Positions 2,485 to 33,985 of a stretch of DNA of 36,768 nt are shown in pieces. The translations under genes were made by a program, and so were the position numbers. The stretch is from the IMG/VR virus record IMGVR_UViG_3300010354_000239, positions 1 to 36,768 of that record; one strand, 5' to 3'. A model generated the notes under the pieces. The model did not search any database and was not told the DNA's origin. It saw nothing but the letters and a program-made list of their open reading frames with translations. Numbering within the stretch: the stretch's first letter is position 1; the number at the start of each line of letters is the position of its first letter. Origin of the DNA: a virus.

Positions 2485-2487
2485 TAA

Positions 2488-12466: not shown

Positions 12467-15400
12467 ATGACTAGAATAAGAACATTAGATTTTCTACCAG
12501 AAATATTTCAAACACCTACAAACAGCCAGTTTCTTGGAGCCACCCTTGACCAACTAGTAAATCCGCCAGTAACTAAAAAGATTGAAGGATTTGTTGGTAG
12601 CAAACTAGGGTATGGAATCAATGCACTAGACTATTATGTTACTGAGCCTACTAAAGTAAGAAGAGATTATCAGTTAGAACCAGGCGTTGTCTTCACTAAA
12701 GAAAATGAGTCAGTAGCAAAAGACTTCATAAGTTACCCAGGTATACTAGACGCACTAAAAATGCAGGGCGGTATTACTAACGACAATAATCGTTTGTTCG
12801 AAAGTCAATTTTATAGTTGGGACAGTTTTACTAACTTAGACATGTTGATCAACTACAACCAATACTATTGGTTGCCAGACGGTCCTCCCTCAGTATCAGT
12901 AGCCGCTTCTACTGTTTTCAAAACAAATGATTATATTGTTAGAGATTTACCTAACGTATATAACATACGTGCGATCGGTTCAGGTGCAGGTACAGATAAC
13001 CCCGTAATTACATTGATTCGCGGTGGTACTTATACTTTTAGTGTAAATCAAGATAGTCAATTTTGGATTCAAGGTGAACCGGGCGTTTCTGGATATAGTC
13101 CTACTAAGCCAAATCTTTATACAAGAGATATATATGGAGTAACCAATAATGGTGCTACAAGCGGATTAGTAACGTTCAACGTTCCTTTCAAAGACGCACA
13201 AGATGAATATAATTATCCAGGCAATGTCGCAGTAGGCGTAGTCAGCACTAAACCATTCAGTCAGATAAATGGATCTAAGTTATCTGAGATCGGCGGCGGA
13301 ATAGACGATGTTACATCATTAGATGGAAGAACAGTTTTATTTTACAACACCGGAGTACCATCTGAAAGTGCATACGTGAGCAATTTCTATGGATCTGGTA
13401 ACTATGATTATAATAATGGTAACTTAGTACTTGCTAAGACAGCAACAATAACTGACATATCAGCACTGGGAGAAATCACAGTAAGCGATACTACTGACTT
13501 AGTTGTAGGTGGAACACTCACTTTCACTGGTACTAGTTTTGGAAACATACAGCCATATAATGAAAATGTGTCTAGCCCTATTAGCACATTATCAATGACT
13601 ATTGGTAAAAAGTATTATATCGAAACATTAGGAACAACCGATTGGATACAAGCAGGTGTCACTCCAAATAGTATAATCAATGCTGAGATAAATGGTACAC
13701 AGCTAATAATTTATAATGTAGTAAGCGGTGCTTTCAGTATAGGACAGACTATTTCAGGCATAGGAGTAATTCCAGACACTACTATCACTGGATATGACAT
13801 GGTAGCATCTGCGTTGAATGGCTATCCAACATACACAGTCTCACAGAGTCAAACAGTATCAACTACAAACATTAGTGTTTATGATTTACAGCCTGGTAAG
13901 ATTTTTACTTGCGCAGCCATACCTTCAGGATTGGGTAGTGTTTCATTATACAATCCAGTAATTTATTACATAAAGACAATAAATTCAACCACTAATAAAA
14001 TAACTATATCACAATCATTAGACGGTCCTACTTTCACACCTCCAAGCGCCGCGTCAGGTACTATGACAGCAGCTATCAATCAAGGTTTGTTCGAAGAAGG
14101 ATTTAGTGTTCCGGTAAATGATTATCTATTTTTGATCACATTTGTGGGTGATATTGATGATCCTGTATTACAGTTGACCCCTGCTAGTTTGATTCCGTCA
14201 CTGACTAAAATAACACCATTATATGGTACTCAATATATAGGACTAGGATTCTTCAAAAATACATCAGGTGCAATTGAGCAAATTCCATATATTTCTGCAC
14301 CACTCGATATTTTATACTATCAAGATGGTTCAAATGCAAATAAATTAGGCATCATCAAAATCATTGAGAGCAATGAACTCAATACATTGAATGTCGATAC
14401 AGAAATATTAGGTAAAAAGAATTATACTAGCATCAATGGAATAGAGTTTACAAATGGTTTGAAAGTTACTTTTGACGGTGACGTAATACCTACAAGTTAT
14501 TTGACAGGTGAATATTATGTTGAAGGTGTAGGAACAGGTATTCAATTGATACCTACACAATCATTAGTATGCCCTGAAGATTATACAACTTCAAGTTCTA
14601 ATCCATATGATATATTAGCATATGATATAGGACCATATGATGCTGCGTTATTCATACCTACTACTGCTGATTATATTACTATAGCACGTAATAGCCTAAA
14701 TCTAAATGCATGGTCACGTAGCAATCGCTGGTTCCATATACAGGTAATTCAAGCAACAGCAGAATATTTGAACAATCCTAATATTCTGACAGAATTTGGT
14801 AATACTACTAATAAAGCTAAAAGACCTATTATTGAATTTTATCCTAACTTACAATTATTCAATTCAGGAACTGTAGCGAAAACAGCAGTTGATTTTATTG
14901 ACACAAAGACTACTGACGCTTTCAATCAAGTAGCAGGTCAATCTGCATACTATCCTGATATCAACACATATACTACATACACAGGTACTATCAATCCTAA
15001 CCCTAGCGTAAACACAGGTGGGTTGATCGAAGCCAGACAATATGAAATAACTAGTTTAGGTACTACAACTTCTGATACTTGGCAATTATTAGGCGCTGTG
15101 TCTGTTGTAGACGGTGACTTTGTTCCCGGCGTAGAGTATATCATAACTGATTTGGGAACTGCTACAGATTGGAATGAAATAGCCGGAACTACTGGCATAA
15201 CATATCTGATCGGAGATATTTTTACTGCTGCAAATACAGGTACGATTGTAGGTGCTGGTAGTGGTTCTGCATTAGTCACAAGATTTGTGTCTACTATTAC
15301 TGGATCATTGAATTGTGATAAGATCGTTCATAACAATCCATATACTATAACTAATTTAGGTAACACTAACTGGGCTGACTTGGGAGCAACAGTTGCGCAA

Positions 15401-18400
15401 CCCGGAACATTCATACCAGGTACAGAGTATGTGATAAAGAGTTTAGGTAGCGTAACTCAAATTCAATGGAACAAGATAGCAGGCTATATCACAAATGCCG
15501 GTTCTTTCGTACCCGGAACAATTTATCAAATAGCAACAATCGGTACTACAGATTATACTCTTATCGGTGCACCAAGTAATACTGTTGGTGTAAATTTCAG
15601 AGCTACAGGTCCTGGTACAGGTACAGGTACTGCATATGGTGGAAACACTTACAATGTAGGAGACTTCTTTACTTGCTTGAATCCAGGAACTCCCGGACCT
15701 TTAGGTGGTTCAGCAGTAACAAAGAATTTCACATCCAACGCAACTGCATTGTTACCTGCTGTAGGTTCAGGTACAGTATATCAAGGAACAGGCGTAGCAT
15801 TAGGCTTGACTGTAACTAGTTTAGAAATACCTGTGAATGCTGTTACAGGCACACTAATAGCAGGTATGTATATAAACGATTTGATCAATAATCAAATCAG
15901 TCAATTGCCCACAAACACTAGAATTTTAGAAATCGAAGAAGTTGACGGAGCATATGACATAACTGTTGTTTGGACAACCCCTGCATTGTTGGCTGGTACT
16001 GTAGGAAACGCAAGTTTTGTTGCTAGCGAGAAAAATAATAGCGACTTGATCGCGTTTCCGGGAGCAAGAGTTGTTTTTGCCGCAGACACTAATCCATTAG
16101 TAAAAGATAAAATATATGTGGTAAATTTTGCAAATACTACATCATATTCATATCCTGTAATAACACTTACTGAAGCAGTTGATGGTCAAATTTTAGAGAA
16201 CGATCAATTTGTAGTCTTGAGAGGTCAAAATAATCAGGGTAATAGTTTCTACTGGAATGATATTGAATATGTATTAGCGCAACAAAAAAATGATGTAAAT
16301 CAAGCACCTCTGTTCAATGTCTATGATGAAAATAATATAAGTTTTGGTAATCAAGAGGTCTATAAGTCTAGCACATTCTTGGGTTCTAAACTATTCAGTT
16401 ATGATATACCTGAAGTTGGTGTAAACGATAGCGTTCTTGGGTTCCCAATCAGTTTTAGTTCTATAAACAATGTAGGTGATATAAAATTTGATGTATCGTT
16501 GAACAGCGATACATTCGATTATGTTAGTGGCCCGCAGCAAAACACACCGGTAACCGGATCTAAAGTAAATGCAGGTTATGTACATAATTCAACAGGTAGA
16601 ACTACATTTACAAGATTATTAGGATGGCAAACAGCTATAGCGCCTAGTACTCAATATCAAGTGTTCAATTTCAAATATGAGGCTAATGTACCACCTATAA
16701 ATCTAGAAGTCGGAGAAACTATTGATTATAGCGTTATATGTGACGTTGCTCAATTAGATCGTGATACAACTATATGGCCTAGCCTCCAAGTTTATAATAA
16801 CAATAACATATTAGTATTGGGTACTGATTATACAGTCACCAATCAATCTAATTCGACAACTATACATTTACAATTAGATAAAGACGTTGATACAGCAATA
16901 CAAGTGCTGATATTGAGCGATCAAATAAGCAATCAAGCTTATTATACTATACCTATCAACCTAAGCAATAACCCTTTCAATACTGATATAACTTCTGTTG
17001 ATATAGGTGACATAAGAGGACATTATCAGTCAATGTTCATCAACAATCCAAACGCATCAGGTGATATGTTTGGATCAAACAACATGAGAGATTTGGGTGA
17101 TGTTGTTCCTTATGGTACTAGAATCATTCAAAATAGCGCAAGTTTAGCGTTACCCGGCGCATTCTTACGTAAAACAGAACATAATTTATTTGACGCATTA
17201 TTATTCAACAGCAGAGAGTATGTCAAGTTCAAAACATTGTTGGTTGATACAGTAAGCAAACTAGATTTCCAACAACGTTTTGATGCCTCAGCACTATTAG
17301 ATGAAGCACTAGATGTAATTACTAGTGTCAAAAATCAAGACATGCCTTTCTTCTGGTCAGACATGATACCAAACAAGGCATCATACATCACTAACACTTA
17401 TCAATTCTTCAACGATGCCGACACAAGTACATACCCATTGAGTAAGGTATATGATTTTACAACTGCAAATTATGATGGTGTATTAGTTTATCTTCAAACT
17501 ACTACACAAGGTACTACTATAACTAGACAGTTGTATAAGAATATTGATTATGTCATCAGCACTGACAGCCCTTCTTTGATCATCACGAAAGACTTGATCA
17601 ATGGTGATAAAATTATTATCAAAGAATATAATCAAACTTATGGTTCATACGTACCAAATACACCAACTAAGTTAGGATTATATCCTGTAACAATACCTAG
17701 CGTAGTGTTAGATAATTCATATATTGAACCTACATATTTTATCGTAGGTCATGATGGCTCATATACAAAACTATATGGAACATATGACGCTGAATTGAAT
17801 TTGCTAATAGATTACAGAGATCAGGCTTTATTAGAATTTGAAACTAGAGTTTACAACAACCTCAAACTAAGCAATACTTTGCCTATACAGGCATCTGATA
17901 TCGTACCGGGATACTTTAGAGATACATCATTCAGCTATGATGAATGGTTAGAGATGTACAGCCCTGCGTTCTTAAATTGGACCGGACAAAATAGATTAGA
18001 TTATAAAACACAAATTTATTTGAAACCTAATCCATACACTTGGAACTACAAAAATACTACAAACAAATTAGATAACAGTTTGATTAGTCAAGGTTTTTGG
18101 CGCGGCATTTATCAGTATTACTATGATACTTCTACTCCCGACGAAACACCTTGGGAAATGTTAGGTTATGCTAACAAGCCAGACTGGTGGGAAGATCGTT
18201 ATGGTCCAGCGCCGTGGACAAGTGATAACTTGATATTATGGAATGATTTACAAGACGGTATTGATTATAACAATGGCGCGCCTGTAGTACTTGAAAACTT
18301 CAAGCGTCCAGGTTTACTAGAAATAATTCCAGTAGACGATGAGGGCAATCTAAAAGCACCATTAGACTGTGTTATCGCAAATTACAATCCTAATAAGTTC

Positions 18401-21400
18401 CAAAGAGATTGGACTATAGGTGATGATGCTCCTGTAGAATTTAGTTATCGTCGTAGTTCAACATATCCTTATGACTTGATGAGATTGCAGGCTCTAATGC
18501 GCCCAGCAGACTTCTTCAATCTAGGCGTAGATGTTGACGATTACAAATATAGTGAAGAATTCAATCAATATCTAGTCAACAATAGAAGTCATCTTGTTCC
18601 TTCACAAATTCAAATTTATGGCAACGGCACAGCCAAAACTTCATATATCAACTGGATAGTTGACTATGAAAAACAATTAGGTGTAGGCGCGACTGAAAAC
18701 ATTTCTAATCTATTGCGTGATCTGGACGTAAGACTAGTTCACAGATTAGCAGGATTTAGCGATAAGACATTACTAAAATTCTTTGTAGAAAAAGGTACAC
18801 CAGATTCAAGAAATTCAAGTCTGTTGATTCCTGATGAAAGTTATCAAGTCTTGTTATATGAAAATCAACCATATGACAGATTGATGTACAGTTCTGTTAT
18901 TATTCAAGTAGATACTAGCGGATATAAAGTACTTGGAAATAGCCAAACAACAAACTATTTCAAAATACTAAAACCAATATTGAATGGTAATACTAAAGAA
19001 ATCATAGTACAAGACCAAGTAGTAGAAGTCAGTGTAGATTATGGCACTAGCACCGATCTTGTACCGTACGGCACAGTTTTTTATAGCACCCAAGAAGTAG
19101 CACAATTTTTATTGAGCTATGGAAAATATCTAGAAACTCAAGGAGCAAACTTTACTGTACAAGAGTCAGGAATTGAGCTTACTTGGGAACAAATGGTTGC
19201 TGAGTTCTTATATTGGGTACAAATTGGTTGGCAGACTGGAAGTGTAATTACTTTGAACCCTGCAGCTAATACATTGATAATTGATAAAGAAAGCCAGATC
19301 GTACAACCACTAGTATTCCAGCAGCAAAACTTTATATTGAATCAAAATTTATATCCAATAGAGAATAAAGACTTAGCGATACTAAGAGAAGGTACATTAT
19401 TCTCTGCTACGACATTGAATGCCGGCGACACAATTGCATATGGACAATTTAGTTTGAGCAATATCGAACATGGTATAGTATTTGATAATGTTACCTTGTT
19501 CAACGATGTCATTTATAATTTGATTACTGGTTTGAAACAGAATCGCATGTATGTTCGCGGTACTAAGAGTGCTGAATGGAATGGCACATTGTTTGCTAGC
19601 GGATTTATATACAATCAAGATAACATACAAGAGTGGAAAAAAGAATACAAGTATACTAAGGGCAGCATCGTCAAATACAAAAACAAATATTGGACTGCAT
19701 TGACTATAGTACAACCTAACACATTATTCAACGAACGCGACTGGAAGAGAACTGAGTACGATGAAATACAAAAAGGTCTGTTACCTAACAGCAGTACACG
19801 CAGCTATGAATCTACGTTATACTATGATGTAGATAAGGCAAATCTTGAACAAGATGCCGATCAACTAAGTTTCAGTTTGATAGGATTCCGTGAACGTCCA
19901 TACATGTCAAGCGCAGACTTGACAGATATTACTCAGGTCAATGTTTATAAAAACATGATCAAAGAAAAGGGAACTAGAGCAACATTGAACGCATTCAAGG
20001 GCGCTCAATTGGCTCAAGGTGGAATAGACTATAACATCTATGAAAACTGGGCGATACTCACTTCACAATTTGGTGGAGTATTGAATAGCAATTTCGTAGA
20101 ATTCAAACTAAACCAAAAGAATTTAGTTTCTAATCCTACGATATTTGGCCTGACTAATGGCAACGATATACAAGGCGCGCAGCAACTAATTCCATTATAT
20201 TCGTTGTTCAACTATGGTAGACCATTGACAACTACCAATGTGTTGCCTACGCTATCTGAAGCTGACTATGAACCAAATCCATTATTCCCTAATGCAGGAT
20301 ATGTGAATTTCAATGACGTAAAGATGTCAAGTTACTTTTATAGCAATTTGGCAGCAGCAGTCAATAAAGATGGATTGATCGTACCTATCAATAACTTCTA
20401 TGTTCGTGATTATGTATGGATCGCAGATTATCTAGCAAAATGGCAGATACTCACACCTACTAGCATAGGTCAAGTTTTACAAGCTAGAAGCAATCTAAAT
20501 GGCACTACAACTATCATATTCAAAGAGCCACACGGATTATCTCAGTATGATATTTTCGCTATAGTAAACTTTGATGGTAGCGTAAATGGATACTATGTTG
20601 CACTACAAATAGTAAATCCAAACCAAGTTATAATCAATCTAACATTACCACCTAGCTCTAGAGAAATTACTGGTGAAGGTATAGGTCTGAAGTTCAATAG
20701 TCAACGAGTTGATCAGCCAGGGGACATTCAAAATCTCCCATTATTGAATAATGAGTTTGTAAAAAATAGAGTATGGGTAGATCAAAATGATGATGGTGGT
20801 TGGGCAGTATATCAGAAAGATATCAACTATCAATATGATAAAGAATTTACAAGAGTAGATAGCGTTACTTTTGGTGGTTCTGTGGCCTATACTAAATTAG
20901 GTGATTATCTGATAGGTGATCCAGGCGCTGGAAAATTATATCGTTACCAATATGATGCATTGACTAAAGAATATGAAGCTGACCAAGTCTTTACTTTGGG
21001 AACAAGTTTTGGCACTACAATCGCACATGAGCAAAATATATTTGTTGTCTCACAATCAACTGGTACACCTAGAGTGTACGTGCTAACGGTCAATGATACT
21101 GTAGTAAGTGATGACTTGGCAGCTTATCAATCACCGTTCGCTCTAAATTTCCAGCCTAATGCTACAGGTTTACCTAGAATATTCACACCAGTAGGATGCA
21201 CTAATTTAGGTAAGGGACTTGCAATTTCTGGAGATAAAAACTGGATCTATGTAAGTGACTTTGATGAGCAAACTTCACCTACACCTTCACGAAACAAAAT
21301 CCATGTATTCAAAAGAGAACAAATATTGACTACTGCTACAAATTTTGTTCAAGGCAGCACATATCAAATAGTATCATTAGGTGACACAGACTTTACACTA

Positions 21401-24400: not shown

Positions 24401-27400
24401 CTTGAAAATGAAAATTATCTACCATGGTTGAACAAGACTAGTTTGGTCGATGTATCTCACAAGATACGCGAACTAAAACCATTGCAAAACTATATTAGCG
24501 ATAATCAAGAATTCTTAGAAGGTTACGTCAATGAGGCAAAACCATATCACGTTGTGATAAAAGAATTCTTATTTGATTACACAGGCACAGATGTATATCC
24601 AGGCACTATTACAGATTTCGATTTGCCTGCAACATTCAATAAGCAAATAAACAAATTTGTAACTCCTGAACTAGTTTATTCTAGCCCATCAAACGAGTAC
24701 GAATATCTACCTAGCGCAAATGTTTGGTTAGAAAATCAATATCAAGAATGGTATAATAATTATGGTGTAAGTTTAGTTGGTCAAGAAAACTATCTAATCA
24801 CTACATTGAATTCTTATTTGACATTATCAAGTGATTTCTTGATTGTAAAGAATGCTAGCGGATTCCCAGTAAATGGTTTGATAAAAATCGCTAGCGTACA
24901 AGATCCAACACAATATGAATTGATCGCTTATAGCAGTGTTGATCGTGCATTGAATATTCTAAGTGGTTTGACAAGAGGTGTCGGTGGCACTGCTATCTAT
25001 AATCACATACCTGGTGAAAATATTTACATTGATTTGCCTGCTGTAGTAGTGTTGGATAGCGGTAGAGGCTATACAAGTCCTCCAAGAGTTATAGCAAGTA
25101 TCGATCTAAACAAGTATCCAGAACCAAGAGAAAATGCTGTTCTTGAAGCGGTTATGTCGCTAGACGGCGTGATCAGCATAAACGTCACTAATCCGGGTTC
25201 AGGTTATGCAGTTCTTCCTGAAATCACTATTGAACCTGCAGTAGTTTCTACATTTACTAGTAGTAGTGTAAACTCTACAAATAACACTATTGAATTGGAC
25301 GCTCCTGAAATACAAACAGGTGATCTAGTTCGTTATGCAGTACCTACAGCAGAAATTACAGGTAGCATAGTTGGAAACATACTAAATGTAACAGAAGTAG
25401 TATCAGGCACGATTTATGCTAATGCTACAGTTGTAGGAAGAAATATTCTAGAAGGTACAATAATCACCGAGCAACTTAGCGGTAATGTAGGCGGTGTTGG
25501 TATTTACAGTCTCAACTCATATCAAACTTTCGAGCAAGGTGATATAGTTGTTTATAACCAAAATATCGATGGTCTAAAGAATAATCAATGGTACTATGTA
25601 CATGTGTTTGAATATTCTCCATTGACGATCTTAGCTTTATATACAACTTACGCAGATTGCATAAACGACACATTTAGACTTCCTATAGGCAACACAGTTG
25701 TATCCGGAGATCAAAGATTGGAGTTAGGTGCAAAAGCCAGTGCTATATCTTCATCATATCCAATTAGAGAAAATAACATAACATTACGTTATGATAGAAC
25801 AACATATGATTCACAAGTAACAGATTGGGTTCCAGGAAGTTTCTATGGTTCTTTCTTTGCAGGATCATATAATAACTTTATAAATGTAGCAAGTTCTTCA
25901 ATAGATTTAGAATCAACTCAGCCTCCTATAAACAGCGTACTTGCAAGTAATCAAGGTTTAGTACTACCAGTCAGTCAAGTATCAAATGAAGAAGCCATTG
26001 AATGGTCATTGTTTGAGCGCAATATACTTGAGATTGTTGATGATGAATTAGTATTGACTTACTCTAGCGATAATGATGATGACGTAAATCCATCAGGCTC
26101 AACTATAGGTTTCACACTAGGTATGCCTGTGAAATTTACAGGAGATGTAGGCCCCGATATTACTGTTGGTGAAACTTACTATATTGTTGAAATAAATGGC
26201 TTGAAGAATTTCAAGATTAGTGAAACACCTGCAGGTAGTCCAATATCCCTATCAGATTACACAGTTTCATATTTGGGTATGAAGTGCTTTACTGCACAAG
26301 TGGTAAACAAGGGAATCGTTTACACTCAATATCCAGGTATACGATCAGTAGGATCTACAGATACAAACAATGTAGTCACTATACCTCTAACAGAAATAGG
26401 TCAAGGTGGTACTGAAGGATTATACACAGGTATTTCGTTGTTGTTTACCGGAATAGAAGCAGGTAACATAAGAGTAAATGAAACATATTACGTTACATCG
26501 GTATTAGACAATCAAAGATTTACTATGTCAACAACTGATGATGCTGTAAGAATAAAAGTATCATCTATAAATGCTGCTAACCAATTGATTATTCAAAATA
26601 CTAATGGTATAAATGTAGGCGATAGAGTAGCATTCGGTAATATGGTCGAAGAAGGTATTACGGTCACAGATTTCGGCAATATATCACAATCTAATTTCTA
26701 TTATGTAAGAGAAATCGGTATCAACGTTATAACTATTAGTGAAACAATTGGTGGATCCGAAGTAAATCTAGACCCGGTAACTGAAGCAAATGATACTTAT
26801 TGCTTCTTGGTAAGCCAGGAGAATACAGTAAATCTAACAAACTCTACAATCAGTGCTGGATCATTGATGATGGAAGTTTCACTACCTGCAAGTCCTGGAC
26901 AAGTAGACGGACAATTGTTTACATTCTATCCAACTAGTCAGCAATATACAAACATATCTACATTTACTTACAGCGATTTACTAGAAAGAACAATCGATAA
27001 TATATCCGCAGCAGACGATATAGTAGCTATATCAGAAGCTAGCGGCGGAACAACAGGTATGTACACAAACATGCCGTTTACAGTTGCTACTAATATCGGT
27101 GGATTAGTTGCAGGAACTGTGTATTATGTTCGCGGTAAAGGAACAATCACAGTAGATGTGACATACACTTCATCAACTACTGATACCCTAATGACTGCTA
27201 GCACTTCTGCATTATATGTAAACATGCCTATAGTATTCAGTGGTCAATCATTGGGCGGTGTACAGGTAGGCGAAACTTATTACATAGAAAGTATAGCAGA
27301 TGCTACTAAGTTCAAGATAAAAGAAACACTTGCAGGTTCTGCACTACAACTAACCACAGGCGGCGGTGTAACAATGACAGGTTCTGGCTCACCATATATC

Positions 27401-30400
27401 ACAGTAGCCGCTACTAAGAACGGACCTGCAATGTCATTGTCAAATGGTACAGGACCAGTTCAATGGAATCAAGAAATCACTGTCACTCCTACATTCGATG
27501 TCAGTTATATACTAGGAGGATACAGACTGGTATTACCTACTAATGGTATCGGAGAAGGATTTACTATAGGTAACAAGATCACTATACCGGGTGCTGTATT
27601 AGGTGGTAATTCACCTGACAATGATCTAACAATCACAGTCAATACAATCGATGCTGTAATTCCGGGAACATTTAGTTGGTCACTACCTGCTAAGTCTAAT
27701 GGATCTATAACTTCAGGAATTTGCTCAGGTACTCCTGCAGGACAGACAGAAAATTATTACTTGAAAGTAAGAACTTCAAACAGTTTCTATGTATATTATG
27801 ATCCTTTATATAAACTACCAGTAAGTGGATTGAATTTTGATTATGTTGGATATACTGCAACCACTGCTTCATCTACTGGAACATCAAACGTTATAAATGT
27901 AGCTGATTCAACTATATTCAATAATAATGATGCGGTAGTCTTTACTGGTTCAGATATACCTAACGAATTAGATTTAGGTACTGTATACTATATTCAAAGC
28001 AAGCCTTCGTCTACAACTATAACAGTAACAAATAATCCTGGAAGTGCAGCATTGACTATTGCTAACGGTCAAACAATCAATTGTACAGTCGCAAAAGCCG
28101 GCTCATTCATGCTATTGCCTGAACCATTCTACTTCACTCAAAGTATCGTAAAATATAACAATAGAGTTTATAGTTGCGTCATCTCAAATAATGATGATGA
28201 ATTTATATTCGGCAAATGGGAAGAAATCAATAGCGGTGATCGTAGACTAAACGCACTAGATCGTGTGAAGGGATATTATCAACCCACAGTCAACATGCCC
28301 GGTGCAGAACTTTCTCAATTGTTTACAGGACTAACATACCCATATACTACATATAAAGGAAATCAATTTGATCCAGCAGAACAATTTAGTCTAGATACTA
28401 AACTAAGCGATCAACCATTCTATCCTAAGCATGTAAACATGCCTGCTGTGATTTTTGATGAGTTGAACTATCTACTACCTGCAAATATGCCTAACTCTTC
28501 AGGTATGGTTGCAGATCAAGAAGTAACTGATGATTGGTATATTAGCCAGTTAGGCAATAAGCCAATGCAACTAACTGACTTGAAAAAGAAAATCGTTTAT
28601 GTGATGACTTCTGCTAGCAGCGCACATCCATTGTTGATTAGCAACAATGGCAGAGTATGGAGTGCTAATGGATTCTTTGTACCTTATGGAACTGATTTTG
28701 CTGATATCAAATACTTCAAGAAAAAGTTGATAGCAAGTCAATTATCATTCAACGCAGTAGATCATGGAAACGGCAAATGGGTCGCAGTAGGTGGTGACAT
28801 CGTAGTAAGCACAGACGGCTCATTGTGGAGAGAAACTTACATTTTCGAAAATGGTGATACTGGTTATATTTACGATATCAAATATGTTGAGACATCATAT
28901 TTGACAGGATATGTAGCTGTTGGTACTAAGAATAATTCTAAACTTGTATTGTATAGTACTGATGCTGAGAGTTGGGTAGAAGTTCCTAACGCCGATTTCG
29001 ATTATAGTTTAGGCGGAACAACTGCACAACAGAATGCAACATTACGTTCTATTACTTTTGATGACGATTACATTGTACTAGTAGGTGAACAGGGTGTTGT
29101 ATATCGTGCAGCAGCCATCGATCATTGGATACTAACATATGTAGCGGCAGATACACTGAATGATGTTCAATATGATCAAGGTATCTTTGCAGCAGTAGGT
29201 AATGATGGCCTATTGATTACTAGCACTGACGGTTCTTCATGGTCTGTTCAAATCACTGATACTACAGAAAATCTAAATGCGATCATTTATACTCAAACAG
29301 ATCAGTTTGCAGAATGGACGATAGTAGGTGATAATAATACAGTATTACAAGCAACTTCATTGACTGGTTCTATCGTATGGGATACTACACAAATATTCAC
29401 TGACCCCGTACCACCGTATACTGTTCAGGGTGCAGCATTCGAATTTGGTTATGGCCCAGAAGAATTAGTTCCTGGATTAGTTAGTGATCAATTGACTATG
29501 ATCGTAAATACTCGCCCAGGCACAAATTGGGATGCTACACAATACGCACATGTTGGTTACGATTCAGTAAGCATAGAGTTAGAGCCGAACCTAGACAATA
29601 GTTATAGTTTCGATAAAGTAGTACAAGTTCCTGCGCAGGTAAGCGTATATATAGTAAACGAAGGAGCAGGTACAAGATTATATCCTGTAACTGACTATAC
29701 AATAGATTGGGTACAGAAATTAGTAACATTGAATGATAACATCACTGGTACACAGTTATTGCGTATCGATGTTTATGAAGTAGGCAACGGTGATCAACTA
29801 GTAAAATCAAATACACAAACTGACCCATTGACTCTAAACGGCACTACAGGATTCCAAGAAATAAATCTTGATTGCAACTATAGTGATCGTAGATCAAATG
29901 GTGGCGGCATCGTACAAGAAATCACAAGTCCTATAGACGCACAAGCCATAGAAACCGATAGCTTGACTGATTCAATCACTGTTGCAAACATAGAAAGATT
30001 TGACTTGAACGGTGAAATCTATTTCACTGGTGAGTTGTTCGGTGGTGTAGAATTAGATACTCCATACTATGTAAAAACTATAAATGTAGATACTAGCAAA
30101 ATCACTCTATCCGATACTCTAATCGACGGAGTAGCAGGACCTATATATTCATTGACTGATGGATCAGGTTCAGACATGACTGTAATCATACAGAAAGGTC
30201 CAGGACAATATTGGAGCGAACCTGCTGTATTCCATAATGGTCAGTTCTTGCTTGCTGGTTATACAAATACTGCTATTAGAACAAAGGCTTCTACAAATTC
30301 AATAGTTACATATGAAACTTCTAATTTGATTTCTGGTCAAACTATTAGATTTGGTTTAGGTATGTTTGGTGGAATAGGATCATTATCGACATACTATATC

Positions 30401-33175
30401 AAGGATATACTAAATTCATCAGAATTTACAATATCTTCAACACAAGGCGGACCAACATTATCATTGGCTAATGGATTAGGTAGAATAATTTTCATCACTA
30501 ATGATTATGCTGTAGCATTGGCAAACAATCAAGTCACAGCAAAAGTTATATTCAGCAACGAATATGATACTGATGTTGATTATATCTCATATTCATTCTT
30601 CAATGAATCTGAACCACATCAGTATGGATATACAATTCCAGAAACTCAGAGTTTCTTAGGAGATAATACTACAACATATTATCTTGACAATTATATCGGT
30701 GATGAGAACTCAGCAAACGCTATTGTTGAAATAAACGGTTTACGTCTAATGCCAACAGAGTATTATGTAAATCCATTCATCAATTCAGTTATATTTGATA
30801 ACCCAGTATCAGATACAGATAGAATTGCTGTCACTACATTCAACGACACACAACGTCAATACTTGAACACACAGTATGAAAATTCACCTATAAAAGTGAC
30901 AGCCGTTCAAACGATATTGAATACTATATCACCTATGTTGACTGAAACACAAGTTGATACTAGTGATGGAACTTATTTCATCGCAGACAATACTGACTAC
31001 ATGGTAGTTGGGCAGTATGTGATGTTCCAATCAAGCGTTGATACACTTGTGACTGCGGGTAATTTTGAAATAGGCAAATATTATCAAATCAAGACAGCAG
31101 GTAATACGAATTGGGCTGCTGCAGGTGCATCACTAGAACCAGCAGGTAATTTTGTAGTCGGCGAACAGTATGTAATCGATAATGTAGGGACGACTAATTG
31201 GCTATCATTAGGAGCAGCGTCTAATACAGCAGGTGTGATCTTTACTGCTACCGGCACAGGATTATATGGTTCAAATGAACTTGTAAGTGGATTAGAATAC
31301 AACATCGAAACACTAGGTGATTCAGCATGGCAGTCAGTGGGTGCTACGATCATAAATCTAACTGGTGGCCCTATATTCATGAATATAGGTACAGAATATG
31401 TAATTACTACTTTAGGAAACACTACTCAAGCTACTTGGAATATAGTAGCAGGTACTTCAGGTGAAGTATATAACGTCGGTGATTCATTCACAGCAGCAGT
31501 TACAAGTGGTGCAGGAAGCGGTAAGGTCATAACAAAAACATTTACAGCAAATGGACATGTTGTAGGCACTGGTTTTGCATCACAGGGTAGTGGTGAAGCA
31601 TATGCAACAAACTTCATGGCAACTGCTGTAGGTTCAGGTACAGGCACTGCGCAACTAATTTCAGAGTTTGGTGATGTCAAAGTTGATGGTACTATGTACC
31701 AGTTGAGCTATGTAAACACATCAACTAACGAGTTCCAAGTTGCAAATGTCGATGATCCATTAGACATTTATCCTAAGAGTGCAGGAACTGGATTGATGAA
31801 TTTATTGGTAGGAGGTCAACCTGCTATTCGCGTGATCACACAAGATGCGCATGGCTTTACTAACGCTACAAATAATAATGTTCCAGTACGCTTAGATGGA
31901 TTGACTGGTTCAGTACAACTAAATGGTAATACGTTCTACATACATGTGATAGATTCAACAATGTTTGACTTGTATTCTCAACCATACAACCCTAATGTTG
32001 ATGCTGTCAACTATCCTGTGACTATATGTGATAGTTATGTATCAGGTGGATTTACTTGGTCTGCTTACAATTGGATATTGTCCACTACAAATGCTACATC
32101 ATGCAACTCATATGATATTGATGCTGCTGATGTGTCAGGATTAGAAATCAATACACCTATCATCTTTACAGAAAATGAGATTGCATTAGGAGAAAGCACA
32201 TCAATACCTGAAATTATAGCAGGCACTGTTTACTATGTCAAAACAATCGATTTGTTGAACAATAAGTTTACAATCTCATCAACAAGAGAGGGTTCAGCAA
32301 TATTGTTGACAACGACCGCAAGTTGTAACATACGTGTAAGTCAGTGGGAACAAAATAATGTAGACCGTTTATGGGTAACAGTAAATGGTATGCGTATCTC
32401 AAGTTCTTCATTGCGTTTATATGATGCCAATGAAGTAGGTATACTATATCCAATGCTTCCAGGCGATGAAATAATCATCACTAGCATGATGCCTTCAGCA
32501 ACTCCTGATGAAGAAACTTACATCAACATCGTAGACAAGAATGGTGTTGGAGTGGTATACAGAGCTAATAACTATTCACGTACATGGATAACAAGACCTG
32601 TCTCTGAATTTGATACAGTAATACATGTCAAGGATGTAACAAATATTACCAATCAAAATATACAAGAAAATGTCATAACACCGGCGAAAACTTTTGGTTA
32701 TTATGTCATCCCATTGATCGCTGATAAAGATGATCTAGTTGATGTTGTTGTATACAATAACACAAGTCCTAGAGAGGGATATATAGAACCAGATTACCTA
32801 CAGATTCAAACAACTGGATTGGGCCCAAGCATATTGATACAAGAAGGTTATTGGATAGAAGAAAACGATGTTCTCACGATCACAAGCTTGGAAGGCAAAA
32901 TCATCTATATTTCTGGAGAATACATGAGACTAGAAAGTGTAGACCCAGTCAATAATGTTTGTGACGTTGCTAGAGGTGTGAATGGATCAAGCGTCCTAAC
33001 ATACATTCCGGCAGACACAGAAGTATATAGCCTTTTATCTGACAACAGGATGAATCAGATAAATTATGATAGTACTTGGAATTCTATACCCGGGGTATAT
33101 AATACAACTCAGGGCGACCCCTTGCAGATTGCTCAAGGGTCAGCAGCGGAATTCCTAAGAACGGATGTTTCATAA
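12467..33175 (+). CDS. Giant 6902-aa modular baseplate-associated structural protein
   Basis: A single uninterrupted ORF (roughly 750 kDa at 110 Da per residue) starts at ATG 12467, one base after gp6, where T4 has gene 7. The N-terminus, LPEIFQTPTNSQFLGATLDQ to FYSWDSFTNLDMLINYNQYY, is from memory the start of a very large uncharacterised family in marine T4-like phages. Core-like stretches lie near residues 1-325, 545-855, 1200-2800 (including NWIVDYEKQLG) and 3440-4200 (KIRELKPLQNYISDNQEFLE, GYVNEAKPYHVVIKEFLFDY). The C-terminus ends GVYNTTQGDPLQIAQGSAAE. Between these sit an FG-GAP-like propeller (about 2805-3440), an Asp-box propeller (about 5365-5660) and many short beta repeats. No signal peptide, membrane segment or enzyme motif was seen. 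It probably forms outer wedge or fibre-like structure; function is inferred from position only. No stop or frameshift interrupts it. Confidence 0.85.
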   Translation: MTRIRTLDFLPEIFQTPTNSQFLGATLDQLVNPPVTKKIEGFVGSKLGYGINALDYYVTEPTKVRRDYQLEPGVVFTKENESVAKDFISYPGILDALKMQGGITNDNNRLFESQFYSWDSFTNLDMLINYNQYYWLPDGPPSVSVAASTVFKTNDYIVRDLPNVYNIRAIGSGAGTDNPVITLIRGGTYTFSVNQDSQFWIQGEPGVSGYSPTKPNLYTRDIYGVTNNGATSGLVTFNVPFKDAQDEYNYPGNVAVGVVSTKPFSQINGSKLSEIGGGIDDVTSLDGRTVLFYNTGVPSESAYVSNFYGSGNYDYNNGNLVLAKTATITDISALGEITVSDTTDLVVGGTLTFTGTSFGNIQPYNENVSSPISTLSMTIGKKYYIETLGTTDWIQAGVTPNSIINAEINGTQLIIYNVVSGAFSIGQTISGIGVIPDTTITGYDMVASALNGYPTYTVSQSQTVSTTNISVYDLQPGKIFTCAAIPSGLGSVSLYNPVIYYIKTINSTTNKITISQSLDGPTFTPPSAASGTMTAAINQGLFEEGFSVPVNDYLFLITFVGDIDDPVLQLTPASLIPSLTKITPLYGTQYIGLGFFKNTSGAIEQIPYISAPLDILYYQDGSNANKLGIIKIIESNELNTLNVDTEILGKKNYTSINGIEFTNGLKVTFDGDVIPTSYLTGEYYVEGVGTGIQLIPTQSLVCPEDYTTSSSNPYDILAYDIGPYDAALFIPTTADYITIARNSLNLNAWSRSNRWFHIQVIQATAEYLNNPNILTEFGNTTNKAKRPIIEFYPNLQLFNSGTVAKTAVDFIDTKTTDAFNQVAGQSAYYPDINTYTTYTGTINPNPSVNTGGLIEARQYEITSLGTTTSDTWQLLGAVSVVDGDFVPGVEYIITDLGTATDWNEIAGTTGITYLIGDIFTAANTGTIVGAGSGSALVTRFVSTITGSLNCDKIVHNNPYTITNLGNTNWADLGATVAQPGTFIPGTEYVIKSLGSVTQIQWNKIAGYITNAGSFVPGTIYQIATIGTTDYTLIGAPSNTVGVNFRATGPGTGTGTAYGGNTYNVGDFFTCLNPGTPGPLGGSAVTKNFTSNATALLPAVGSGTVYQGTGVALGLTVTSLEIPVNAVTGTLIAGMYINDLINNQISQLPTNTRILEIEEVDGAYDITVVWTTPALLAGTVGNASFVASEKNNSDLIAFPGARVVFAADTNPLVKDKIYVVNFANTTSYSYPVITLTEAVDGQILENDQFVVLRGQNNQGNSFYWNDIEYVLAQQKNDVNQAPLFNVYDENNISFGNQEVYKSSTFLGSKLFSYDIPEVGVNDSVLGFPISFSSINNVGDIKFDVSLNSDTFDYVSGPQQNTPVTGSKVNAGYVHNSTGRTTFTRLLGWQTAIAPSTQYQVFNFKYEANVPPINLEVGETIDYSVICDVAQLDRDTTIWPSLQVYNNNNILVLGTDYTVTNQSNSTTIHLQLDKDVDTAIQVLILSDQISNQAYYTIPINLSNNPFNTDITSVDIGDIRGHYQSMFINNPNASGDMFGSNNMRDLGDVVPYGTRIIQNSASLALPGAFLRKTEHNLFDALLFNSREYVKFKTLLVDTVSKLDFQQRFDASALLDEALDVITSVKNQDMPFFWSDMIPNKASYITNTYQFFNDADTSTYPLSKVYDFTTANYDGVLVYLQTTTQGTTITRQLYKNIDYVISTDSPSLIITKDLINGDKIIIKEYNQTYGSYVPNTPTKLGLYPVTIPSVVLDNSYIEPTYFIVGHDGSYTKLYGTYDAELNLLIDYRDQALLEFETRVYNNLKLSNTLPIQASDIVPGYFRDTSFSYDEWLEMYSPAFLNWTGQNRLDYKTQIYLKPNPYTWNYKNTTNKLDNSLISQGFWRGIYQYYYDTSTPDETPWEMLGYANKPDWWEDRYGPAPWTSDNLILWNDLQDGIDYNNGAPVVLENFKRPGLLEIIPVDDEGNLKAPLDCVIANYNPNKFQRDWTIGDDAPVEFSYRRSSTYPYDLMRLQALMRPADFFNLGVDVDDYKYSEEFNQYLVNNRSHLVPSQIQIYGNGTAKTSYINWIVDYEKQLGVGATENISNLLRDLDVRLVHRLAGFSDKTLLKFFVEKGTPDSRNSSLLIPDESYQVLLYENQPYDRLMYSSVIIQVDTSGYKVLGNSQTTNYFKILKPILNGNTKEIIVQDQVVEVSVDYGTSTDLVPYGTVFYSTQEVAQFLLSYGKYLETQGANFTVQESGIELTWEQMVAEFLYWVQIGWQTGSVITLNPAANTLIIDKESQIVQPLVFQQQNFILNQNLYPIENKDLAILREGTLFSATTLNAGDTIAYGQFSLSNIEHGIVFDNVTLFNDVIYNLITGLKQNRMYVRGTKSAEWNGTLFASGFIYNQDNIQEWKKEYKYTKGSIVKYKNKYWTALTIVQPNTLFNERDWKRTEYDEIQKGLLPNSSTRSYESTLYYDVDKANLEQDADQLSFSLIGFRERPYMSSADLTDITQVNVYKNMIKEKGTRATLNAFKGAQLAQGGIDYNIYENWAILTSQFGGVLNSNFVEFKLNQKNLVSNPTIFGLTNGNDIQGAQQLIPLYSLFNYGRPLTTTNVLPTLSEADYEPNPLFPNAGYVNFNDVKMSSYFYSNLAAAVNKDGLIVPINNFYVRDYVWIADYLAKWQILTPTSIGQVLQARSNLNGTTTIIFKEPHGLSQYDIFAIVNFDGSVNGYYVALQIVNPNQVIINLTLPPSSREITGEGIGLKFNSQRVDQPGDIQNLPLLNNEFVKNRVWVDQNDDGGWAVYQKDINYQYDKEFTRVDSVTFGGSVAYTKLGDYLIGDPGAGKLYRYQYDALTKEYEADQVFTLGTSFGTTIAHEQNIFVVSQSTGTPRVYVLTVNDTVVSDDLAAYQSPFALNFQPNATGLPRIFTPVGCTNLGKGLAISGDKNWIYVSDFDEQTSPTPSRNKIHVFKREQILTTATNFVQGSTYQIVSLGDTDFTLLGAAENKVGITFIKNAQPGTGTGTAYLANYKYLDVIDGPTVTPDKFGYSLATNYYGDTLIVGAPSNDYSPTIANWGRAYVYQRSVQNIETQNEYNPLAATSFELAWTPNSNLTRYPLYVYRNGTLVEPTYYTVTGSNLVYNGVYNTGDIITVSGNEFTLAQTLTTETTPRVGVQFGTSVDTNTFGTEFLVGAPFALSKNNQEGAVYRFTYSGARFGYIDGTSEVNVTAPRKLLINGYSVTIPAGDAASAAAAINNAVITNIQAVANNNKLSISVVNSQLVVANAELTIFAPDEITYSELGLEVLSQTQVITCPHVAGPTQFGTVVKFNENNSFVTSAPVGTRFANTTFDFVDDLNQDNDTIFDNNATQFLESYENAGAVYMFDYLGNYNETLENIGAYTYAQSCNAQDQTFGAQPYYGTALDFNSNKVVVGTPYYKPTEVDGQVIVYVNEAGVQDWSVLRQTNPIVDINAIENTQLFSAETNDTLINLDYIDPLQGKLFGAIRQNIDVISNIDPATYNNSNNTQAGFVWGAEQVGTIWFDTTNIRYINYHQNDNVYNAKYWGTLFPGSDVAVYSWIASSVPPSEYTGSGVPRDINLYTVQTTLNASNTIQPVYYFWVRNSGIVFNKEGKTLADINLANYIANPLQSGISYMAPLAPDTFALYNSQQYINANDTVYHLGFSTSTNDNPAHQEFQLIREDYPSDFLPGVPNVADGIYFPQSLYDKMIDSLCGVNYDTTIGEEDEIVPDPFLPKAVQSGINTRPRQSFFYNRFIALKNYIQYANSVLKLYPITEIRPGASYLNKSDEFYDTTLYWERINWWLPGYDDSTKSVMQVPVYSDLAALSVPTGTIVTVEQNSNGSSEFYRYDNIDNYLGMYVSTDTYLSRQIVTYKNVNYISLKDVPVNTYPTNTDYWQIYVDPVGTWTRIGLQNGTIKFKSELYDYEEGQVGFGGDFFSTSLYDQYPSQETRWIIRALNEQIYTNELLIHRNRSLILLFEYIQTETLENENYLPWLNKTSLVDVSHKIRELKPLQNYISDNQEFLEGYVNEAKPYHVVIKEFLFDYTGTDVYPGTITDFDLPATFNKQINKFVTPELVYSSPSNEYEYLPSANVWLENQYQEWYNNYGVSLVGQENYLITTLNSYLTLSSDFLIVKNASGFPVNGLIKIASVQDPTQYELIAYSSVDRALNILSGLTRGVGGTAIYNHIPGENIYIDLPAVVVLDSGRGYTSPPRVIASIDLNKYPEPRENAVLEAVMSLDGVISINVTNPGSGYAVLPEITIEPAVVSTFTSSSVNSTNNTIELDAPEIQTGDLVRYAVPTAEITGSIVGNILNVTEVVSGTIYANATVVGRNILEGTIITEQLSGNVGGVGIYSLNSYQTFEQGDIVVYNQNIDGLKNNQWYYVHVFEYSPLTILALYTTYADCINDTFRLPIGNTVVSGDQRLELGAKASAISSSYPIRENNITLRYDRTTYDSQVTDWVPGSFYGSFFAGSYNNFINVASSSIDLESTQPPINSVLASNQGLVLPVSQVSNEEAIEWSLFERNILEIVDDELVLTYSSDNDDDVNPSGSTIGFTLGMPVKFTGDVGPDITVGETYYIVEINGLKNFKISETPAGSPISLSDYTVSYLGMKCFTAQVVNKGIVYTQYPGIRSVGSTDTNNVVTIPLTEIGQGGTEGLYTGISLLFTGIEAGNIRVNETYYVTSVLDNQRFTMSTTDDAVRIKVSSINAANQLIIQNTNGINVGDRVAFGNMVEEGITVTDFGNISQSNFYYVREIGINVITISETIGGSEVNLDPVTEANDTYCFLVSQENTVNLTNSTISAGSLMMEVSLPASPGQVDGQLFTFYPTSQQYTNISTFTYSDLLERTIDNISAADDIVAISEASGGTTGMYTNMPFTVATNIGGLVAGTVYYVRGKGTITVDVTYTSSTTDTLMTASTSALYVNMPIVFSGQSLGGVQVGETYYIESIADATKFKIKETLAGSALQLTTGGGVTMTGSGSPYITVAATKNGPAMSLSNGTGPVQWNQEITVTPTFDVSYILGGYRLVLPTNGIGEGFTIGNKITIPGAVLGGNSPDNDLTITVNTIDAVIPGTFSWSLPAKSNGSITSGICSGTPAGQTENYYLKVRTSNSFYVYYDPLYKLPVSGLNFDYVGYTATTASSTGTSNVINVADSTIFNNNDAVVFTGSDIPNELDLGTVYYIQSKPSSTTITVTNNPGSAALTIANGQTINCTVAKAGSFMLLPEPFYFTQSIVKYNNRVYSCVISNNDDEFIFGKWEEINSGDRRLNALDRVKGYYQPTVNMPGAELSQLFTGLTYPYTTYKGNQFDPAEQFSLDTKLSDQPFYPKHVNMPAVIFDELNYLLPANMPNSSGMVADQEVTDDWYISQLGNKPMQLTDLKKKIVYVMTSASSAHPLLISNNGRVWSANGFFVPYGTDFADIKYFKKKLIASQLSFNAVDHGNGKWVAVGGDIVVSTDGSLWRETYIFENGDTGYIYDIKYVETSYLTGYVAVGTKNNSKLVLYSTDAESWVEVPNADFDYSLGGTTAQQNATLRSITFDDDYIVLVGEQGVVYRAAAIDHWILTYVAADTLNDVQYDQGIFAAVGNDGLLITSTDGSSWSVQITDTTENLNAIIYTQTDQFAEWTIVGDNNTVLQATSLTGSIVWDTTQIFTDPVPPYTVQGAAFEFGYGPEELVPGLVSDQLTMIVNTRPGTNWDATQYAHVGYDSVSIELEPNLDNSYSFDKVVQVPAQVSVYIVNEGAGTRLYPVTDYTIDWVQKLVTLNDNITGTQLLRIDVYEVGNGDQLVKSNTQTDPLTLNGTTGFQEINLDCNYSDRRSNGGGIVQEITSPIDAQAIETDSLTDSITVANIERFDLNGEIYFTGELFGGVELDTPYYVKTINVDTSKITLSDTLIDGVAGPIYSLTDGSGSDMTVIIQKGPGQYWSEPAVFHNGQFLLAGYTNTAIRTKASTNSIVTYETSNLISGQTIRFGLGMFGGIGSLSTYYIKDILNSSEFTISSTQGGPTLSLANGLGRIIFITNDYAVALANNQVTAKVIFSNEYDTDVDYISYSFFNESEPHQYGYTIPETQSFLGDNTTTYYLDNYIGDENSANAIVEINGLRLMPTEYYVNPFINSVIFDNPVSDTDRIAVTTFNDTQRQYLNTQYENSPIKVTAVQTILNTISPMLTETQVDTSDGTYFIADNTDYMVVGQYVMFQSSVDTLVTAGNFEIGKYYQIKTAGNTNWAAAGASLEPAGNFVVGEQYVIDNVGTTNWLSLGAASNTAGVIFTATGTGLYGSNELVSGLEYNIETLGDSAWQSVGATIINLTGGPIFMNIGTEYVITTLGNTTQATWNIVAGTSGEVYNVGDSFTAAVTSGAGSGKVITKTFTANGHVVGTGFASQGSGEAYATNFMATAVGSGTGTAQLISEFGDVKVDGTMYQLSYVNTSTNEFQVANVDDPLDIYPKSAGTGLMNLLVGGQPAIRVITQDAHGFTNATNNNVPVRLDGLTGSVQLNGNTFYIHVIDSTMFDLYSQPYNPNVDAVNYPVTICDSYVSGGFTWSAYNWILSTTNATSCNSYDIDAADVSGLEINTPIIFTENEIALGESTSIPEIIAGTVYYVKTIDLLNNKFTISSTREGSAILLTTTASCNIRVSQWEQNNVDRLWVTVNGMRISSSSLRLYDANEVGILYPMLPGDEIIITSMMPSATPDEETYINIVDKNGVGVVYRANNYSRTWITRPVSEFDTVIHVKDVTNITNQNIQENVITPAKTFGYYVIPLIADKDDLVDVVVYNNTSPREGYIEPDYLQIQTTGLGPSILIQEGYWIEENDVLTITSLEGKIIYISGEYMRLESVDPVNNVCDVARGVNGSSVLTYIPADTEVYSLLSDNRMNQINYDSTWNSIPGVYNTTQGDPLQIAQGSAAEFLRTDVS
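13460..14095 (+). repeat. Nested beta-repeat block A in the giant protein
   Basis: ITVSDTTDLVVGGTLTFTGT (from about 13468) is the first half of a 'V-FTG...YYV' module. Its second half, NPVIYYIKTINSTTNKITIS, appears only from about 13950. Between them lie an LG-T-W repeat (YYIETLGTTDWIQAG, about 13613-13660) and a second family, A-I-NGTQL...VVSG...GQTISGIGV...YTVSQSQTV (about 13678-13870). Two foreign modules therefore interrupt one host module. Confidence 0.65.
15031..15660 (+). repeat. Cluster of five LG-T-W/F repeats in the giant protein
   Basis: Five tandem copies of about 25-45 residues: YEITSLGTTTSDTWQLLGA (about 15041), YIITDLGTATDWNEIAGT (about 15136), YTITNLGNTNWADLGAT (about 15340), YVIKSLGSVTQIQWNKIAG (about 15430) and YQIATIGTTDYTLIGA (about 15523). 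The last has the full tail NTVGVNFRATGPGTGTGTA. Most copies are preceded by 'F-PG'. A GGTACA hexanucleotide is repeated in tandem near 15608-15625. The consensus resembles a repeat I recall as common but unnamed in phage virion proteins. Confidence 0.8.
20870..22790 (+). other. FG-GAP-like beta-propeller region of the giant protein
   Basis: Blade-like repeats of the type 'FG-S-A...-L-VGAP...G-VY-(Y/F)' recur: FGGSVAYTKLGDYLIGDPGA with GKLYRYQYD, FGTTIAHEQNIFVVSQ, LGKGLAISGDKNWIYVSD, FGYSLATNYYGDTLIVGAPS with GRAYVYQR, FGTSVDTNTFGTEFLVGAPF with GAVYRFTY, FGTVVKFNENNSFVTSAPVG with GAVYMFDY, and YGTALDFNSNKVVVGTPYY with GQVIVYV. This gives about seven blades, the usual number for integrin-alpha-type propellers. 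Two insertions sit between blades: an LG repeat (about 21343-21480) and a flagellin-IN-like segment (INGYSVTIPAGDAASAAAAI, about 22102-22161). The assignment is from motif pattern only. Confidence 0.6.
21343..21480 (+). repeat. Single LG-T-W/F repeat inside the propeller
   Basis: One full-length copy, FVQGSTYQIVSLGDTDFTLLGA followed by the tail GITFIKNAQPGTGTGTAYL, lies between two propeller blades. It is closest in form to the last copy of the 15 kb cluster (same GTGTGTA tail). This indicates that the module moves as a unit. Confidence 0.75.
25040..25700 (+). repeat. GYTSPP/GSGYA repeats and nested module block B
   Basis: SGRGYTSPPRVIASIDL and NPGSGYAVLPEITIEPA (about 25060-25235) are two copies of a 'G-GY--PP-V-I' repeat. 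A 'GD-V-Y...YYV' module follows: IQTGDLVRYAVPT, then TFEQGDIVVYNQNIDGLKNN and QWYYVHVFEYSP. Between the two GD-V-Y half-motifs lies a second copy of the A-I-G...VVSGTIYANATVVG...GGVGIYSLNSYQ family also present in block A. The inserted module is thus flanked by a duplicated short motif (QTGDLVRY and EQGDIVVY). Confidence 0.6.
26023..28085 (+). repeat. Run of 'V-FTG...YYV...F-IS-T' beta repeats in the giant protein
   Basis: At least six diverged copies of about 45-60 residues: MPVKFTGDVGPDITVGETYY with FKISETPAG (about 26121), ISLLFTGIEAGNIRVNETYY (about 26427), DRVAFGNMVEEG with YYVREI (about 26620), MPFTVATNIGGLVAGTVYYV (about 27070), MPIVFSGQSLGGVQVGETYY with FKIKETLAG (about 27223) and DAVVFTGSDIPNELDLGTVY (about 27928). 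Between the fifth and sixth lies a different unit, GFTIGNKITIPGAVLGGNSP (about 27557), of a 'G-G---GD-I-IPG--LGG' type. Further module copies lie near 29973, 30298, 30969 and 32110. Confidence 0.7.
28560..29440 (+). other. Asp-box (BNR-like) propeller region of the giant protein
   Basis: Repeated S-x-(D/N)-G-x-x-W turns recur: LISNNGRVWSA, VSTDGSLWRE, YSTDAESWVE and TSTDGSSWSV. Each precedes beta strands with 'VAVG' or 'AAVGNDG' patterns (GKWVAVGGDIVV, GYVAVGTKNNSKLVLY, IVLVGEQGVVYRA, GIFAAVGNDGLLIT, EWTIVGDNNTVLQA). Asp boxes of this form mark sialidase/BNR-type and photosystem-assembly-type propellers. No catalytic Arg triad was recognised, so a structural or glycan-binding role is more likely than hydrolysis. 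About five to six blades can be counted. Confidence 0.6.
30969..31780 (+). repeat. Four LG repeats nested in a YY module, near the C-terminus
   Basis: A module half (YFIADNTDYMVVGQYVMFQS, about 30975) is separated from its partner half (GTMYQLSYVNTSTNEFQVA, about 31689) by four LG-T-W repeats: YYQIKTAGNTNWAAAGA (about 31078), YVIDNVGTTNWLSLGA (about 31169), YNIETLGDSAWQSVGA (about 31298) and YVITTLGNTTQATWNIVAGT (about 31397). The last continues with YNVGDSFTAAVTSGAGSG, which parallels the second copy of the 15 kb cluster (YLIGDIFTAANTGTIVGAGS). Confidence 0.75.
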
Positions 33176-33340
33176 ATGATAAATAATAATAACGGGAATA
33201 AATCGCAACCTGACGATAAGAAACAGGAAGAAAAGACCAGAAAACCAAATGAGTTGAACGGTGTTTACTTCTCATCTCATGTAAAGATTTTTGACCCAAA
33301 TAGCAAAGAAGTGTTTGTTCAAAAGAGGGCGGATGATTGA
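33176..33340 (+). CDS. Small 54-aa protein, partial paralogue of the next gene
   Basis: ATG 33176 directly follows the giant gene's TAA. The 54 residues begin MINNNNGNKSQPDDKKQEEK (polar, basic) and continue NGVYFSSHVKIFDPNSKEVF to VQKRADD. The KIFDPNSKEVFVQK segment matches KIYDPNTLEVFVDK near the start of the next protein, and then stops where that protein goes on. The TGA overlaps the next ATG by one base (33338-33342, TGATG), as expected for translational coupling. A late promoter octamer covers codons 1-4, so a transcript from it would lack this ATG; translation then needs upstream message or a downstream TTG (33254). It could be a real small virion protein or a leftover duplication. Confidence 0.55.
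   Translation: MINNNNGNKSQPDDKKQEEKTRKPNELNGVYFSSHVKIFDPNSKEVFVQKRADD
33178..33185 (+). promoter_or_regulatory. Late promoter GATAAATA at the end of the giant gene
   Basis: GATAAATA begins 3 bases after the giant gene's stop codon. It would supply transcripts for the 204-aa protein at 33340 and the fibre genes beyond it. It overlaps the first codons of the 54-aa ORF. If this promoter is used, the 54-aa ORF's first ATG lies upstream of the transcript start. Confidence 0.68.
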
Positions 33341-33963: not shown

Positions 33964-33985
33964 AGACTAGCGGAGTTATTTGACT

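Follow-up and report, generated by a model that had tools for sequence, protein, structure and literature searches.

A gp6-adjacent gene of 6902 codons in an uncultivated phage clade encodes a conserved giant protein, probably a virion scaffold of the baseplate periphery with a modular arm

Introduction

In the baseplate gene cluster of phage T4, gp7 lies between gp6 and the fibre genes and is 1032 aa long. In the stretch of DNA analysed here (the window, a 36,768-base linear virus record from a metagenomic contig), the gene in the same place encodes a protein 6.7 times longer. Using 20.7 kb for one virion protein makes this gene an outlier among phage genes. Is the giant gene real, what is it made of, and does it do the work of gp7?

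Some of this is already known. Cultured phages carry homologues as unnamed virion proteins, and structural-type proteins without a name, as long as 7,694 aa, have been reported in huge phages (PMC7162821); the giant falls into the same size class. As far as our searches show, what is new is that a whole clade conserves the protein at double length, that its modular arm is largely clade-specific, and that chain length follows a rule; the domain assignments are new too.

An intact and conserved open reading frame

The giant gene (Table 1) is a single open frame with an ATG start and no internal stop. As the initial annotation had reported, it begins one base past the end of the gp6-like ORF. The predicted protein has a mass of 759 kDa and a pI of 4.3, and no transmembrane-like stretch.

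A frame of 6902 open codons is far longer than chance allows, and it is confirmed by independent contigs. Searching IMG/VR with a 721-aa slice of the core returned 185 encoded relatives, of which 80 were kept; in all 80 the frame continues to the end of the stored DNA. The frame is open with the same C-terminus in 34/34 longer contigs (5798-7757 codons, no stop inside), a set that holds a few near-identical contigs, for example those of L012-L015. Together with the window gene, the 28 relatives fetched in full give 29 complete chains of 5796-7756 aa (median 6404). The comparison of homologue lengths proposed at the outset finds a single frame every time. These 29 proteins share 48-89% pairwise identity, and the gene order around them is identical in all 28 relatives, where covered. 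For one pair (G028/G032), dN/dS is 0.035-0.123 in 14/14 windows along the chain. Hence, the whole giant is under purifying selection. No relatives of the giant were found in bacterial and archaeal genome contigs.

Since the window comes from a metagenomic contig, the giant could be an assembly artefact or a fusion of separate genes. The initial annotation had named this as the outcome that would undo its claim. It is excluded by the 34 open frames, several of them in contigs >150 kb, the conserved gene order, the purifying selection, which spans all putative joints, and the window gene itself, which has no internal DNA repeat at E<=1e-8 able to mislead an assembler. Isolated phages also carry shorter homologues as a single CDS. 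We therefore regard the artefact as already refuted. Across a widespread uncultivated phage clade, a protein of roughly 6,000-7,000 residues in the baseplate region is a stable trait maintained by purifying selection and not one contig's freak.

Table 1. Features of the giant gene and its surroundings (window positions; residues refer to the giant protein).
Feature	Positions	Strand	Evidence
GATAAATA, T4-late-promoter-like candidate, upstream of gp6 and giant	9010..9017	+	sequence match
gp6-like baseplate wedge gene	9037..12465	+	phrog_10646 E 7.7e-259; phrog_219 (T4 gp6) E 2.5e-23
Giant virion-protein gene, 6902 aa, PHROG 10938	12467..33175	+	ORF, profile, 34/34 open homologues
N-terminal domain, residues 1-146, conserved family-wide	12467..12904	+	blast to all cultured homologues
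Predicted cupredoxin-like domain, part one, residues 146-300	12902..13366	+	AlphaFold model of homologue L059
Hypervariable insert in cupredoxin-like domain loop, residues 301-579	13367..14203	+	alignment mapping
Predicted cupredoxin-like domain, part two, residues 580-632	14204..14362	+	L059 model and mapping
GTW-module-rich hypervariable insert, residues 836-1195, 88-361 aa across clade	14972..16051	+	
Most conserved core, residues 1200-2650	16064..20416	+	blast, alignment
T7-fibre-adaptor-like domain, residues 1396-1492	16652..16942	+	VIA, Foldseek on predicted model
Second adaptor-like domain, about residues 1640-1725	17384..17641	+	low-confidence model, VIA
CBM5/12-like (chitin-binding) fold, about residues 2384-2432	19616..19762	+	VIA, low-confidence model
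Propeller 1, FG-GAP repeats, about residues 2780-3440	20804..22786	+	PF14312
Conserved domain(s), residues 3433-4100	22763..24766	+	common to PA5oct, Atu_ph07, SCTP-2, RaK2
Largely clade-specific C-terminal arm, residues 4301-6902	25367..33172	+	tblastn, module scan
Propeller-2 candidate, Asp-box-like S-x-D-G-x-x-W motifs, residues 5392-5593	28640..29245	+	motif count only
Small conserved ORF, 54 aa	33176..33340	+	47-56 aa counterpart in 28/28 relatives
phrog_11259 gene, 204 aa from ATG 33340	33340..33954	+	profile; always downstream

Relatives of the giant

The phrog_10938 profile matches the giant with E values of 4.2e-209 in the first half and 3e-50 in the second. The protein belongs to PHROG 10938 ('virion structural protein'), and although it occupies the place of T4 gp7 we do not class it as a gp7. 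With its first 2000 residues, tblastn found 57 phage records; those among the matches listed are jumbo phages or fragments annotated so. In RaK2, 121Q, PA5oct, Atu_ph07 and Phosso the homologue sits directly behind a gp6-like gene as a single CDS of 3323-4555 aa.

These cultured relatives, and SCTP-2, have the core of the giant and lack its C-terminal arm. RaK2 ORF070w (3326 aa) and 121Q gp582 (3323 aa) are half as long as the window protein. Their blast-matched blocks lie within its residues 1-145, 730-811, 1195-2700 and 3455-4050; residues 4301-6902 have no match, and recognisable YYV or GTW modules are absent. PA5oct gp355 (3857 aa), Atu_ph07 gp180 (4449 aa), Phosso (4555 aa) and SCTP-2 gp140 (3807 aa) are likewise shorter, with 24-34% identity in the matched core. 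SCTP-2 differs in gene order: the gene that precedes its giant, 141 (L005:10633-19923), itself encodes 3096 aa, and the profile places the T4-gp6-like match elsewhere in the genome, at about 231 kb.

A pattern taken from an alignment with cultured members reached at least 589 IMG/VR contig stretches encoding relatives of this wider family. All 46 sampled members have a single open frame, 3127-4946 codons long and in some cases cut short by the contig end. Their core shows 26-46% identity, and they are roughly 2,000 or more residues shorter. Residues 1-300, 554-831 and 1200-4100 form the core common to the wider family (blast), and the last 343 aa are present in 34/34 clade members. A conserved N-terminus, mid region and C-terminus, as initially proposed, are thus confirmed by homologue comparison.

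For relatives, presence in the virion has been shown. The PA5oct homologue is marked as ESI-MS/MS-detected in its record. Virion mass spectrometry found 17 peptides of phAPEC6 gp245 (381.88 kDa), which adjoins wedge gp244 (PMC7247149), and 21 peptides of CBB_236, which adjoins wedge CBB_237 (PMC5259590); for both, homology is judged from position and size, not from sequence. Such data show these proteins to be part of the virion but do not locate them specifically in the baseplate.

Two modules account for the length

Two short modules explain the length of the giant. The GTW module (about 41-45 aa) is scattered, with 0-16 copies per clade giant. The YYV module (about 64 aa) sits mostly at fixed places, with 7-19 copies. 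In the window giant we recognise 11 + 12 = 23 copies of the two, which gives a count to the dozens of short beta repeats noticed initially. Across the 29 clade proteins the combined copy number correlates with chain length (r = 0.946). Because the proteins share descent, the p-value of this correlation is not meaningful, although the effect size is. Module copy number against length is hence a measurable growth rule for such a chain.

Length changes concentrate in four hot spots (300-555, 835-1195, 5330-5650 and 6130-6450). Recent tandem duplication was rejected as the source of the repeats: the window gene is without internal DNA repeats, and those of the relatives are few and diverged. At the upper end, the giant of L085 / L113 has 7756 aa, with 16 GTW and 19 YYV modules. 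It slightly exceeds the maximum of 7,694 aa given for huge phages (PMC7162821). Phage proteins of this length are indeed very few, as stated initially, though that earlier report has to be set beside this.

The arm contains YYV modules, variable GTW modules, a second CBM-like patch and the propeller-2 candidate. Residues 4301-6902 gave no tblastn match in 50,697 phage genomes. YYV modules occur in 29/29 clade giants and in essentially none of the wider-family members scanned, several of which are truncated by the end of the locus. Short modules of residues 4100-4500 and the patch 5215-5309 recur in some wider-family members, so the arm is new for the most part but not entirely.

Predicted domains

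Structure models span residues 1 to about 1500 (good) and 1480-2600 (poor). The first comes from the homologue L059, whose initial 970 residues were modelled with AlphaFold from a 73-row alignment (pLDDT 88, pTM 0.67) and correspond to window residues 1-1508 minus two large inserts. The second, built from clade members only, has a pLDDT of 52.6 and was used just for two small domains.

The N-terminal domain, modelled with a pLDDT of about 60-95, has no PDB match among the matches listed and is a candidate for the wedge-binding end. Residues 146-300 and 580-632 are predicted to form a cupredoxin-like domain, a beta-sandwich of the rusticyanin type (VIA Z 10.0, rmsd 2.0, 94 residues of the L059 model aligned to rusticyanin 2cal). 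In a check for copper ligands no column had H/C/M in >40% of the 73 homologues, and the fold appears to be copper-less. The first hypervariable insert, 8-289 aa across the clade (columns 300-555), falls within a loop of this domain. The inserts are therefore not simple linkers.

In the predicted model, residues 1396-1492 resemble the LME-1 portal-tail chain 9efk_AE (VIA Z 8.7, rmsd 1.9, 69 aligned), and Foldseek gives a probability of 1.0 to 9efk_AE and 8i4m_M. From the poorer model, the second adaptor-like domain reaches a VIA Z of about 4 to several phage tail chains, including that of the P1 baseplate (9ay5). The CBM-like fold in the same model matches the phage Milano baseplate receptor-binding complex 8fqc (Z 6.4, rmsd 1.8, 45 aligned), and chitin-binding domains are also among its fold matches.

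Of two propellers claimed initially, the first is supported by FG-GAP_2 (PF14312) in 22/23 homologues (best E 1.1e-9); for the second, the Asp-box-like motifs are only suggestive. When profiles of the giant are compared with each other, there are hints of more adaptor-like copies near 3100, 5740, 6100 and 6660, with pairwise scores that are weak except for 6051-6170, and of the second CBM-like patch near 5220, where the pairwise score is also weak. NCBIfam had no match to the giant, and searching PDB sequences with the alignments A2-A6 and A9 (73 rows) gave no credible match.

Comparison with T4 baseplate proteins

Upstream of the giant the window reads like a baseplate cluster: a gp55-like late sigma gene on the minus strand, a virion gene, a gp53-like gene, another virion gene, and gp5-like, gp25-like and gp6-like genes. 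Does the next gene then encode gp7? The position stands, after gp6 as in T4, but identity with T4 gp7 is undetectable by sequence, or by fold in the well-modelled residues. The T4 gp7 profile (phrog_964) was found only in T4 among 11 genomes and in 0/10 jumbo-phage records, and gp6 was found in 11/11. No gp7 chain is among the listed fold matches of the good model (residues 1 to about 1500). Comparison with T4 gp7-gp12 by hhalign, in 400-aa windows and with a 73-row alignment, gave at most 3.4%. This lowers the case for a relation but does not exclude it, because the gp6 positive control reached just 17%. The label 'gp7' is thus one of position, and contact between the giant and gp6 would likewise be read from gene order, since no sequence or fold link to T4 gp7 was found.

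Apparent matches to other wedge proteins were set aside. Those to phrog_677 (gp9/gp10-like) involve only profile positions ~265-393 and giant residues ~124-242, the cupredoxin-like accessory region and not the gp9/gp10 core. Those to phrog_438 (gp8) inside the Atu_ph07 giant involve only profile positions 185-273, and we read them as shared beta repeats. In six clade relatives, some with incomplete genomes, gp8 was not found by phrog_438.

Role of the giant

We propose that the giant is a very long protein of the virion's distal tail, probably a scaffold of the baseplate periphery with a modular arm. The core would pack against gp6 in each wedge, at the place of T4 gp7, with one chain per wedge and hence presumably six copies. 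From there small beta domains (cupredoxin-like, fibre-adaptor-like, CBM-like and propeller) would follow one another outward in a rigid chain. This chain could form or stiffen the rim of the baseplate and dock the short fibres encoded just downstream. Within the clade, the C-terminal arm of YYV modules and surface-loop inserts made of GTW modules would have lengthened it, which may provide longer reach or more docking and glycan-contact sites.

A bigger rim, as the initial annotation expected, does not follow from size alone. RaK2, from the RaK2-like phages with homologues of ~3.3 kaa, has a baseplate of 35-36 nm (PMC3622015), and the related CBB lies in the same range (PMC5259590).

A bolder version has one ~760-kDa chain replace gp7, gp8 and parts of gp9-gp11, forming the greater part of each wedge's periphery as a single molecule whose reach is set by the copies of the two modules. 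The merging of wedge and fibre roles that was suggested initially is consistent with the missing gp8 match in the six relatives and with domains of fibre-attachment and host-binding type inside the chain. We hold this full replacement only tentatively and think it rather doubtful. It raises the question of whether a single giant chain, in place of the T4 gp7-gp11 set, makes up the wedge periphery in jumbo phages.

The same fibre-adaptor-like, CBM-like and propeller domains would also suit a protein of a host-adhesion network, such as the base of a branched fibre or whisker, that sits on the baseplate and is not a structural replacement of gp7. Fibre-type genes lie directly downstream, among the BFVD matches are cyanophage proteins named 'baseplate wedge tail fiber connector', and RaK2-like phages bear ramified fibres (PMC3622015). 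However, the core, at more than 3,000 residues, shows the conservation of a structural component, every relative has the gene after gp6, and dN/dS is low throughout, with no hypervariable tip of the kind typical of receptor-binding ends. On balance adhesion as the main role is unlikely. We give still less credit to a polyprotein that a phage protease cuts into several baseplate parts. The clear alternation of conserved blocks and variable inserts would fit such a precursor, and some jumbo phages do process head proteins (review PMC13282480). But phAPEC6 gp245 and CBB_236 are each listed as one protein, although peptide data would not rule cutting out, and at least one large variable insert lies inside a domain, in the cupredoxin-like loop. 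Processing of this kind is improbable, and the scaffold with a modular arm remains our preferred reading.

The downstream junction and promoter-like sites

The giant is followed by the 54-aa ORF (...KPNELNGVYFSSHVKIFDPNSKEVFVQKR...), whose start touches the giant's stop and which overlaps the next start. It lies below the usual ORF length cut-offs; PA5oct gp356 and Atu_ph07 gp179 are annotated counterparts by position. For the phrog_11259 gene, ATG 33340 is a more likely start than TTG 33337. A gene with a Peptidase_G2-like domain (self-cleaving fibre chaperone) and then an uncharacterised gene complete the downstream order.

The window has five plus-strand GATAAATA sites (577, 9010, 33178, 33956 and 34926), which equal the T4 late promoter TATAAATA with one change. 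Their total count in the window is not above chance, but their placement is striking: each of the five falls either at a gene junction or a short way inside a called start. In 28/28 relatives, as in the window, such a site is kept at the giant's stop. With one such late-promoter-like site before gp6 and one at the giant's stop, gp6 and the giant would be on one transcript. A hairpin considered in the junction at 33.17-33.34 kb has a z of -0.11 and is not a structure.

The phrog_11259 gene keeps 81-95% identity in relatives whose giants share only about 49-58% with that of the window. In L095, L096, L102 and L103 an extra gene of 593-1042 aa, similar to the Peptidase_G2-type gene at 33980-34930, precedes the usual copy.
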